Shown: positions 3,556 to 23,087 of the stretch, in pieces
Layout: each line of letters opens with the position of its first letter
How positions within the stretch are numbered: the stretch's first letter is position 1
DNA from: Syntrophomonadaceae bacterium
GTDB lineage: Bacteria > Bacillota > PH28-bin88
Reading direction: 5' to 3'
NCBI GenBank assembly: GCA_018333865.1
Contig: JAGXSE010000057.1
Coordinates: 1-64,000 of the forward strand
DNA: 64,000 nt
Program-made: the position numbers and the translations under genes
The notes under the pieces: model-generated
Told to the model about the DNA's origin: nothing
The model's input: the letters and a program-made list of their open reading frames with translations, nothing else
Database searches by the model: none

Positions 3556-4515
3556 TTAATAGGCCTTTTCCTGCTTCTCTCCCCGGCTGCTTAAAAGCCG
3601 TTCGCGCCAAGCCAACAGGTGGCTGATCTGTTTTTCCACCAAGGCAACTAAATCTGTAATTTCGCCGGAGCGAGCGGGCCCCTTTTGCTTGCCGGCAGAA
3701 ACATAGGAGCCCAACATCCTGAGACTTAAGGCGGTTGACTTTAATGCCTCCATGGCCTCAGCTACCTGAGGTTCCTGGTAATGTCCGTCAATGTCAATGA
3801 AAAACAGGTATTCCCCTATTTTTGTTTTCGCAGGCCTTGATTCGATTTTGCTCAGGTTGATGCCCCGCAAGGAAAACTCTCCCAAAGCCTGAAACAATGC
3901 ACCGGGCTGGTGGCTGACGGAGAGCAATAAACTGGTTTTGTAAGGGCCGGAACATTCAAGCTCCTGCCTGGAAATAACTATAAAGCGAGTTTCATTATTG
4001 GGCTGATCCGCAATATTTTCTGCCATTATTTTCAGGCCGTACAGCTGGGCAGAAGCCGCCGTACCCACAGCAGCCCATGGTTCCGGGGAAATGGACACCA
4101 GCCGCGCCGCCTCAGCGGTGCTGGTCACACTGATAGGTTCTGCCGCCGGAAACTTGGCAGCAAGAAAGCGGCGACATTGGGCCAGGGCCTGGGGATGTGA
4201 CAGTACCCGGGAAACTTCCAGCAAACTGATTTCAGGCCTGGTTAACAGATTATGCCTTATAGGCAATACAATTTCACTGGTTATGATTAGATCATAGTCA
4301 TAGGCTAACAGGTCCAAGGTTTGATTTACCGACCCCTCTAAAGAGTTTTCGATGGGGACAATGCCTGCGCTCGCTTCCTCCCGGTATACTGCAGCAAAAA
4401 CCGCCTCGATGGAAGGGTAAGGAACCGGCTCCCAGGAACCGGTTTTTAGGAACTGGCCTGCTGCCTCCTCACAGAAAGTCCCTGCCGGGCCCAGGTAAGC
4501 CAACCTATTAAGCAT
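3556..4515 (-). CDS. pheA: Prephenate dehydratase
   Basis: This enzyme converts prephenate to phenylpyruvate in phenylalanine synthesis. The 319-residue protein has the catalytic domain at 1-185 (AYLGPAGTFCEEAA at the start, NNETRFIVI with the catalytic TRF motif near 177) and a phenylalanine-sensing ACT domain at about 195-275 with the ESRP motif. A charged tail of about 45 residues follows the ACT domain and looks helical. It overlaps the end of aroF by 8 bp, so the two are translationally coupled and both lie under the T-box leader. Confidence 0.95.
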   Translation of the reverse strand: MLNRLAYLGPAGTFCEEAAGQFLKTGSWEPVPYPSIEAVFAAVYREEASAGIVPIENSLEGSVNQTLDLLAYDYDLIITSEIVLPIRHNLLTRPEISLLEVSRVLSHPQALAQCRRFLAAKFPAAEPISVTSTAEAARLVSISPEPWAAVGTAASAQLYGLKIMAENIADQPNNETRFIVISRQELECSGPYKTSLLLSVSHQPGALFQALGEFSLRGINLSKIESRPAKTKIGEYLFFIDIDGHYQEPQVAEAMEALKSTALSLRMLGSYVSAGKQKGPARSGEITDLVALVEKQISHLLAWRERLLSSRGEKQEKAY

Positions 4516-5557
4516 GGGCCACCCCTCCCAATTCAGAAAGCAGAAGCTTACGCCCTACAGCGGGAATTATTCTTTTCAGCTGCTGCATTAAGAAATTCAG
4601 TTCTTCAGGATTAAGAGACTGAGCCCCGTCAGACAATGCCTTGGACGGCTCCGGGTGCATTTCTATAATCAGGCCATCGGCTCCTGCAGCAATGGCGGCT
4701 AAGGACATGGGCCGGACCAGCAGCCGGTCGCCGGTGCCATGGCTGGGATCCACGATTACTGGCAGATGGCTGAGCCGCTTAACTAACGGTACCGCGCTTA
4801 AGTCAAGGGTGTTTCTGGTTGCAGTCTCAAAAGTACGAATACCCCGCTCGCATAAGATGACCTTCTCGTTACCTTCCGACAGGATATACTCGGCGGCCAT
4901 CAACCATTCCTCCACTGTCGCAGCCATGCCCCGTTTCAGCAACACCGGTTTCCTGGATTGGCCTGCGGCCCTGAGGAGCTGGAAATTCTGCATGTTCCTG
5001 GCGCCAATCTGCAAAATATCGACATAGTCCACGGCCAGATTCAGGCTGCGCTCGTCAATCACTTCAGTTATGGTTGGAAGCCCAGTTTCCAAGGAAGCTT
5101 CCCGCAGGAGCTTCAGCCCCTTTTCCTCCAGCCCCTGAAAGCTATAAGGGGATGTGCGGGGCTTAAAGGTACCGCCGCGCAAAACATGGGCACCTGCTTT
5201 CTTTACCCACCGGGCGGAAATCAACAGCTGCTCCCTGCTTTCCACTGAGCAGGGTCCTGCCATTATGACAGCGTTTTCCCCACCAATAGCGATTCCTTTA
5301 ATCTGGACGACAGTATCTGTGACCCGAGCTTCCCGGCTAACCATCTTATAGGGTTTCATAATAGGCACTATTTTCTCCACTCCCGGCATTAGTGCCAGGC
5401 TTTTTAAGGGCTCATCCTCCCTTCTTTCCCCTACCGCCCCGATCACAATCCGCTTTACTCCTCGGATAAGCTGCCCCTTGAAACCCAATTCGGCAAGCCT
5501 TTGGTTTACTGCCTCCATCTGCTCGCTGGTAGAACTGATGCTCATGACAATAACCAC
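4508..5557 (-). CDS. aroF: 3-deoxy-7-phosphoheptulonate synthase (DAHP synthase), type I beta
   Basis: DAHP synthase condenses phosphoenolpyruvate and erythrose 4-phosphate, the first step to aromatic amino acids. Of 349 residues, the N-terminal 75 form the ferredoxin-like regulatory extension typical of type I beta enzymes. The barrel follows with VIMAGPCSVESREQ (about 95), LRGGTFKPRTSPYSFQG (about 124), ILCERGIRTFE and VDPSHGTGDR. The GTG start at 5557 has GGGAGGG seven bases upstream and gives the usual N terminus. It is cotranscribed with pheA and controlled by the upstream tandem T-box. Confidence 0.95.
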   Translation of the reverse strand: MVIVMSISSTSEQMEAVNQRLAELGFKGQLIRGVKRIVIGAVGERREDEPLKSLALMPGVEKIVPIMKPYKMVSREARVTDTVVQIKGIAIGGENAVIMAGPCSVESREQLLISARWVKKAGAHVLRGGTFKPRTSPYSFQGLEEKGLKLLREASLETGLPTITEVIDERSLNLAVDYVDILQIGARNMQNFQLLRAAGQSRKPVLLKRGMAATVEEWLMAAEYILSEGNEKVILCERGIRTFETATRNTLDLSAVPLVKRLSHLPVIVDPSHGTGDRLLVRPMSLAAIAAGADGLIIEMHPEPSKALSDGAQSLNPEELNFLMQQLKRIIPAVGRKLLLSELGGVAHA

Positions 5558-5588
5558 TTCAATTCCCTCCCAAAAGATAAATTAAACA

Positions 5589-6012
5589 GCCCATAGCCTT
5601 TATCCCCAAGGGACGAAAGCTATGGGCCTCCGTGGTACCACCCTAGTTGACCCCCAATCAGGGTCCGCTCATTATAAGGTACGGGGACAGAGTTCCCGGT
5701 AAAACAAAAAGCTTTTCGTCCCTTGGGACGAAAAGCTTAAGCTTGCCGCGTTACCACCCTAGTTGATCTCTTATAGAGATCCCCTCGAAATCCAAGGTGC
5801 GGGAACTATTGTTCCGATACCCCCTTCCTTGTAACGTCGGAAGCAGACGGCCTAGTCTACTTGCCCTGTCAGGGTTTCAACCGGCAACTCCGGAGAGAAC
5901 TTCAGTCAACCATACTCTAAAGACGCTTCCAGTCTATGGCGCCTTCTCCCTGGAAAAGCTGGGACTAACCTACTTTGCTCCTTCACTGTTGTTATAGCGA
6001 TGAAATGCAATT
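5589..6012 (-). promoter_or_regulatory. T-box leader of aroF-pheA with duplicated antiterminator/terminator module
   Basis: This tRNA-sensing leader lies between the promoter and aroF. One Stem I is visible: GGAG/CTCC and AGTC/GACT helices enclose a specifier loop whose 5' side holds AGTA and whose 3' side reads GAAGTTCT. TTC at 5899-5897 is the only aromatic codon there, so it probably reads tRNA-Phe. A T-box sequence AGGGTGGTAACGCGG (5760-5746) is followed by a 14-bp terminator stem (5709-5738) and T-run. Only about 55 nt later a second AGGGTGGTACCACGG (5644-5630) and second stem (5589-5627) appear with no second Stem I. Both T-boxes are preceded by TCAACT, and similar blocks (TTCCCGCACCTT / TCCCCGTACCTT) lie upstream of each, which shows partial duplication. 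Confidence 0.9.
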
Positions 6013-6018
6013 TTATCT

Positions 6019-6047
6019 ATTATAGCAAAATTCTGTTTTGATGTAAA
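6019..6047 (-). promoter_or_regulatory. Sigma-A promoter of the aroF-pheA T-box transcript
   Basis: TTTACA (6047-6042), a 17-bp spacer and a perfect TATAAT (6024-6019) on the minus strand give a predicted start near 6012, just upstream of T-box Stem I. Confidence 0.8.
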
Positions 6048-6093: not shown

Positions 6094-6169
6094 TGGTGGG
6101 CGATGACAGGTTTGAACTGCCGACCCCCTGCTTGTAAGGCAGGTGCTCTCCCAGCTGAGCTAATCGCCC
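6094..6169 (-). tRNA. tRNA-Val (anticodon TAC)
   Basis: This 76-nt cloverleaf has encoded CCA (6096-6094), a GGGCGAT acceptor arm paired with ATCGCCC, TTCAAAC in the T loop, and the seven-base anticodon loop CTTACAA giving anticodon TAC. It is the last of three tandem tRNA genes. Confidence 0.95.
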
Positions 6170-6170
6170 T

Positions 6171-6245
6171 TGGTGGGCCCACCCGGATTCGAACCAGGAA
6201 CCAACCGGTTATGAGCCGGCAGCTCTGCCGTTGAGCTATGGGCCC
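6171..6245 (-). tRNA. tRNA with CAT anticodon (Met, possibly Ile2)
   Basis: This 75-nt cloverleaf has encoded CCA, a GGGCCCA/TGGGCCC acceptor arm, the T loop TTCGAAT and the anticodon loop CTCATAA. The paired first base excludes initiator tRNA. Elongator Met and lysidine-modified Ile2 both carry CAT. The GGCTCATAACC anticodon arm is closer to what I recall of Firmicute Ile2 than of elongator Met, but identity cannot be settled by eye. Confidence 0.9.
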
Positions 6246-6249
6246 TAAG

Positions 6250-6324
6250 TGGCTCCCCGGGTAGGATTCGAACCTACAACCTACCGGTTAACAGCCGGTT
6301 GCTCTACCCTTGAGCTACCGAGGA
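6250..6324 (-). tRNA. tRNA-Asn (anticodon GTT)
   Basis: This 75-nt cloverleaf has encoded CCA, a TCCTCGG acceptor strand with one G-U pair, discriminator G, T loop TTCGAAT and anticodon loop CTGTTAA giving GTT. It is the first of the three tandem tRNAs; spacers between them are one and four bases. Confidence 0.95.
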
Positions 6325-22805: not shown

Positions 22806-23087
22806 CAAAAACCTCCCGGCTCTGCAGCAAAAAAGCTACAGGGACGAGAGGTATTCCCGCGGTTCCACCCTGATTAGCCGACACATAGGCCAACTCCCTT
22901 TATTATTGCAAGTTTTACTCACTGGCCTGATGTCTTTCAAGAGTAATCCACCAGGATAACATCGGGCCAGTTTTCTTCTTGCTGCTCCGGGGCGCCTTCC
23001 CAGCAGAACCACTTGCCGGTTTCCACCTTGCCCGGCTCTCTGCAAAAGCTGTTCTTCGCGGTACTACTCCCTATCATAGCTGGCTTT
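22806..23087 (-). promoter_or_regulatory. Glycine T-box leader of glyQS
   Basis: A canonical T-box riboswitch. Stem I contains GGGAGTAGTACCGCG and AGAGAGCCGGG. The specifier loop reads GGGAAGGCGCC, so GGC (22996-22994) selects tRNA-Gly. The T-box AGGGTGGAACCGCGG is at 22871-22857. The competing terminator (ACCTC...GAGGT then TTTTT) occupies 22852-22806. Uncharged tRNA-Gly should promote readthrough into glyQS. Confidence 0.95.

Follow-up and report, generated by a model that had tools for sequence, protein, structure and literature searches.

T-boxes with duplicated terminator-antiterminator elements were reportedly announced as a class by Vitreschak et al. 2008 (RNA 14:717); like the aroF-pheA leader analyzed here, leaders of this class have one Stem I that is followed by two antiterminator/terminator units. 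Partially tandem T-boxes are also named in a T-box review (Zhang 2020, PMC7583486), which lists their modes of action, and how one tRNA platform drives two antiterminators, as unknown, and whose passage on them gives neither a mechanism nor an example. Fully tandem T-boxes, found for trp, ilv and thrS, are said to require two uncharged tRNAs (PMC12452182). They share with the aroF-pheA leader two serial antiterminators that both have to be passed, but each of their units has its own Stem I. A sharper response has been suggested earlier for double T-boxes (PMC9413887). Outside the T-box family, tandem SAM-II riboswitches have mixed expression platforms, the first acting on transcription and the second on ribosome binding (PMC9481103), and in strand-exchange riboswitches a shared strand changes its partner through a toehold (reviewed in PMC10907184). 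Since partially tandem T-boxes and T-boxes with duplicated terminator-antiterminator elements have already been described, the aroF-pheA leader seems to add a new member to a known class, possibly with a mechanism that is new.

The leader is encoded on the minus strand of the window, i.e. the whole stretch of 64,000 nt that was analyzed (contig JAGXSE010000057.1 of a Syntrophomonadaceae bacterium), and its features are collected in Table 1. In it, two Stem III/antiterminator/terminator cassettes follow a single promoter and a single Stem I; it is a partially duplicated T-box with the single Stem I upstream of both antiterminator/terminator units. The covariance-model search allowing partial matches, which the initial annotation had proposed, gave a full T-box match (RF00230) at 5995-5721 (-) with 94.2 bits against a cut-off of 93, covering model positions 1-219, and a second, partial match at 5677-5609 (-) with 34.4 bits and an E-value of 5e-6. 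The partial match is limited to model positions 152-216, which correspond to Stem III and the antiterminator, and the Rfam scan of the leader gave no signal for a Stem I between modules 1 and 2 even at E-values up to 5. A fully tandem T-box was rejected for this leader, which has a single Stem I only, and so was a compact second Stem I between the modules. The two T-box cores, AGGGTGGTAACGCG (5760-5747) and AGGGTGGTACCACG (5644-5631), are spaced by exactly 116 nt; a chance repeat was rejected as their origin, the reversed-pattern control of the survey described below being zero. The anatomy thus agrees with the initial annotation, which had described one promoter, one Stem I with the candidate specifier TTC (Phe), two T-box/terminator modules about 116 bp apart and no room for a second Stem I, and had suspected that the class might be known already, as the naming of partially tandem T-boxes in PMC7583486 indicates.

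Table 1. Features of the aroF-pheA leader and operon, with positions in the window.
Feature	Position	Strand	Basis
Sigma-70-type promoter, TTTACA-17-TATAAT	6019-6047	-	Consensus scan, 11/12 matches, TG before -10
Single Stem I: closing helix CAAC/GUUG + GGAG/CUCC, AGUA/GAA loop	5885-5991	-	RF00230 alignment and sequence reading
Specifier codon TTC (Phe), in GAA-G-TTC at 5903-5897	5897-5899	-	RF00230 alignment
Stem II / IIA-IIB region, 3' end = F-box-like CGACGTTA	5832-5884	-	RF00230 alignment, position
Helix E copy 1: 5' strand GGTATCGGAAC (single occurrence), 3' strand GTTCCCGCACC	5796-5821	-	Motif counts, fold
Stem III of module 1, GATCTCT ATA AGAGATC	5765-5781	-	Covariation
Antiterminator 1: core AGGGTGGTAACGCG + CGTCCC	5725-5760	-	RF00230, pair conservation
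Terminator 1: clean hairpin of 13-14 bp + U-run TTTTTGTTTT	5701-5738	-	Terminator scan, covariation
Helix E copy 2: conserved 3' strand CCCCGTACC, without 5' strand GGTATCGG	5678-5700	-	Motif counts
Stem III of module 2, GACCC...GGGTC	5649-5665	-	Partial RF00230 match, covariation
Antiterminator 2: core AGGGTGGTACCACG + CGTCCC	5610-5644	-	Partial RF00230 match, pair conservation
Terminator 2: GCCCATAGCTTTCGTCCC...GGCTATGGGC hairpin + interrupted U-tract TGTTTAATTT	5579-5627	-	Fold, covariation
aroF, DAHP synthase, start GTG, SD GGGAGGG at 5571-5565	4508-5557	-	NCBIfam NF006421, E 8e-151; TIGR01361 above cut-off
pheA, prephenate dehydratase	3556-4515	-	NCBIfam NF008865 above cut-off

In both modules, the antiterminator and the predicted terminator are mutually exclusive, CGTCCC being common to both structures. 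The hairpin of terminator 2 is strong (folding energy, -33 kcal/mol); it is absent from the output of the consensus terminator scan, which lists terminator 1, and the U-tract after it is usually better in relatives than in the window. Downstream, pheA overlaps aroF by 8 nt and belongs to the same operon. A cluster of tRNA-Asn, tRNA-Met and tRNA-Val at 6094-6324 (-) immediately precedes the leader on its own strand, and the leader promoter comes just after this cluster and a terminator-like hairpin.

The specifier register was read as TTC (Phe) by comparison with the genome's pheS T-box, in which GAA-A-TTC has the same GAA-N-TTC register as the aroF-pheA leader. A Phe specifier fits the regulated pathway, which comprises DAHP synthase and prephenate dehydratase. 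The genomic tRNA-Phe gene has the anticodon GAA with A73 and CCA encoded, and the UGGU of modules 1 and 2 is complementary to the ACCA end of this tRNA. The glyQ, cysS and thrS leaders of the same genome (gene names assigned by eye from translated ORFs) carry UGGA instead, in agreement with the established tRNA discriminator bases. The window also holds an ordinary single T-box before glycyl-tRNA synthetase alpha at 22837-23086 (-), with a GGC specifier and UGGA.

The distribution of double leaders was surveyed with a pattern of two T-box cores 98-128 nt apart, using the reversed pattern as a control. Double cores were found in 49 of the 399 sampled genomes of the phylum (reversed-pattern control, 0) and in 66 of 113 genomes of one class, and the arrangement upstream of aroF is likewise double for the closest aroF homologues, which come from Syntrophomonas-like and Desulfotomaculum-like genomes. 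Among the three genomes examined from the window's own order, the double leader was present in the window's genome only. The double-module design is widespread in these anaerobes and is not a freak; a triple-module pattern had no match in the 399 genomes. The comparative set consisted of 134 distinct double leaders, ~89% of which have a TTC specifier, with Tyr (TAC) and Trp (TGG) specifiers also present. Some double leaders are probably Ser-specific, an assignment made from gene identity and UGGC only, because the serC/aminotransferase leaders gave no clear specifier codon; two apparent TAC matches in these leaders were set aside as probably spurious. The genes following the double leaders, recognized by eye from translated ORFs and not by family search, encode DAHP synthases (long and short), SSS-type symporters, phenylacetate-CoA-ligase-like proteins and lipoproteins, or are trpE, trpD and serC. 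A second DAHP synthase gene of the window's genome (G000:C50:9465-10481, L096), 59% identical, has no T-box core in the stretch examined around it. Two leaders, L015 (2117-2380) and L242, have enlarged core spacings of 251 and 174 nt, respectively, and still keep a CCCGTAC strand upstream of the module-2 Stem III.

Sequence comparison indicates that both cassettes are under selection. We aligned 40 divergent sequences for module 1 and 38 for module 2. In module 1, two-sided changes were found at all seven pairs of Stem III, the antiterminator pairs were kept in 100% of cells, and covariation of terminator 1 was seen across relatives. In module 2, two-sided changes were found at all five pairs of Stem III, the antiterminator pairs were kept in 95-100% of cells, and terminator 2 showed covariation at all nine pairs. 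The covariation scores of both modules exceeded all 500 shuffles and every slid register, a comparison to which the relatedness of the sequences applies as a caveat. Furthermore, the N of UGGN is equal in both modules in 132 of the 134 leaders: UGGU/UGGU occurs with Phe and Tyr specifiers, and UGGC/UGGC with Trp specifiers and before serC, the split that is expected from A73 and G73 tRNAs. This agreement could have begun by copying; its maintenance suggests that both modules read the same tRNA, and modules 1 and 2 therefore probably read the same tRNA end. In L178 and L179, the second module has UGGA or UGGG where the first has UGGU, so that its N no longer fits A73; decay or a changed function of module 2 is possible in these two leaders.

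We consider it about 80% probable that the aroF-pheA leader is a partially duplicated, tRNA-Phe-responsive transcriptional T-box that makes two serial tRNA-gated decisions on one platform. The single Stem I/II platform would bind tRNA-Phe through its anticodon, and when uncharged, this tRNA would stabilize antiterminator 1 by ACCA:UGGU pairing and let the polymerase pass terminator 1. After the passage, terminator 1 would refold, and the same tRNA, bound to the platform, or else a new molecule would act at antiterminator 2 before aroF-pheA is transcribed. Since read-through at two serial gates would be roughly the product of two probabilities, the leader would leak less and respond more steeply. 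The comparisons support one Stem I, two cassettes under selection and the same tRNA end read by both; from these we infer serial gating, a sharper response and the use of one tRNA molecule for both modules, and a tighter shutoff from the two gates can reasonably be expected. The proposal of the initial annotation that one platform serves two decision points in series is in this respect well supported, by the anatomy, the covariation and the UGGN agreement. Its reading of one Stem I serving two modules holds, although it overlooked the wide distribution of the design, a half-duplicated helix and the putative translational second modules of some relatives.

The half-duplicated helix, which we call helix E, is lineage-specific and lies between the F-box-like element and Stem III, with GGGTATCGGA as its 5' strand and TCCCGTACC as its 3' strand. 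In module 1, the motifs of the 5' and the 3' strand are present in 98 and 111 of the 134 leaders, respectively. The 3' strand occurs again in module 2 of 94 leaders (11/134 in shuffled sequences), and the motif count of the 5' strand in module 2 is 0/134. Each unit of the genome's full Phe tandem (G000:C3) has both strands of helix E. In ensemble folding of 76 non-redundant leaders, the predicted partner of the 5' strand is module 1 as long as the transcript ends before module 2 (72/76), and module 2 in transcripts that include it (61/76; shuffled control, 8/76). The variable E1 loop, which lies outside the conserved core, matches its own module 2 at 4.91 of 8 pairs compared to 4.03 for other loci (43 clusters), a value reached in none of 5000 permutations, although permutation does not remove relatedness. 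L103, L018 and L214 are examples of this complementarity, and in some such leaders the module-2 stretch is not copied from the module-1 strand. In the window leader, the partner switch is visible in the predicted minimum-energy fold, and in the split-energy test its helix E signal was not better than that of shuffled sequences (-12.3 vs -12.7 kcal/mol); only 29 of the 76 leaders ranked first or second among 21 in this test. As modeled, relatives show a clear exchange signal and the window a weak one; for the window leader, we put the exchange forward as a hypothesis.

The predicted behavior of helix E looks like a toehold-type strand exchange. Its single 5' strand would change its partner from module 1 to module 2, and the exchange would loop out module 1 and set module 2 beside the platform in its place. 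As in the strand-exchange riboswitches (PMC10907184), a shared strand would switch its partner via a toehold; there, the exchange couples a ligand to one platform, whereas helix E would move one sensor between two. That the hand-over between the modules is aided by helix E is more tentative than the serial gating itself. At somewhat less than even odds, we propose that one tRNA platform is passed between two expression platforms by co-transcriptional strand exchange of helix E with the E1 loop as the toehold, and that a translational module can take the place of the second platform, as suggested by six aroF leaders of one genus.

Three other readings were weighed. The strongest, which concerns the hand-over only and which we regard as evenly balanced, holds that the exchange is not real and that the module-2 strand, CCCGTACC, is a relic of the duplication or part of a local hairpin. 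Its complementarity to the upstream strand would then arise from the duplication itself. The identity of the copy to E1 is slightly above chance, so that partial copying of E1 accounts for part of the similarity; some leaders have a local 5' partner in module 2 (e.g. GTACGGG in L205), and a short local hairpin is possible in the window as well. However, 27 of the 76 leaders are almost without a local fold at this place, and 21 of these 27 are predicted to pair with the upstream strand. The complementarity is also kept in leaders with divergent sequences, CCAGTATC with GGGTACTGG in L109 and GAGTATCC with GGATATTC in L112, and the motif persists in L015 and L242 despite the 251 and 174 nt between their modules.

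An unlikely reading is that two tRNA molecules are used, the first binding to Stem I and antiterminator 1 and the second to antiterminator 2 via its 3' end alone, as the lack of a second Stem I and the position of module 2, which begins more than 100 nt further downstream, might suggest. In T-boxes, the NCCA contact is by itself weak and does not discriminate between tRNAs, specificity being supplied by Stem I anchoring, and the recurrent match of UGGN to the platform's own tRNA fits better with one anchored tRNA. Slightly less probable still is a single working gate at module 2 with module 1 as a remnant or as a partial terminator that acts constitutively (or with the roles exchanged): the bulge reads UGGNAAC rather than UGGNACC in 74/134 first modules compared to 5/134 second modules, the U-tract of terminator 2 is poor in the window and the UGGN of module 2 is altered in two relatives, but a dead module should decay over such a phylogenetic range, and both modules show covariation, near-perfect antiterminator conservation and the 132/134 UGGN agreement.

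In some relatives of the two-gate leader, the second decision appears to be made on translation. In aroF leaders from six genomes of one genus (L237-L242; G446, G151, G444, G119, G443 and G203), the Shine-Dalgarno sequence of aroF, GGAGGG, which immediately precedes the start codon, is a possible pairing partner of the antiterminator-2 strand CGTCCC. The start codon follows almost immediately 3' of this helix and the usual long U-run is missing, three of the six having no U-run at all. The six leaders preserve this helix with differing sequences, e.g. AAATTTAC in L239 and AAAGTG in L242. In these leaders, transcription would be terminated at module 1 and translation would be blocked at module 2, and such putative translational modules support the view of the modules as independent decision points. 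The order resembles that of the tandem SAM-II riboswitches, transcription and then ribosome binding, but these have their own aptamer for each platform (PMC9481103), unlike the one-Stem-I leaders. If the assignment is true, the six leaders are natural two-stage switches, on transcription and then translation, with one sensor.

In the open-access literature searched, neither a helix E exchange nor a leader combining one Stem I with a second module that acts on translation is described. On how one tRNA platform drives two antiterminators, the 134 leaders point to the retention of both modules, probably with a common tRNA end as their target, and the half-duplicated helix E offers a concrete candidate mechanism for the hand-over that can be tested by mutation. 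The window's genome also contains a true tandem (G000:C3:29445-30032; L004, L006), in which an SSS-type symporter gene is preceded by two complete Phe T-boxes, and SSS-type symporter genes in relatives have one-Stem-I double leaders.
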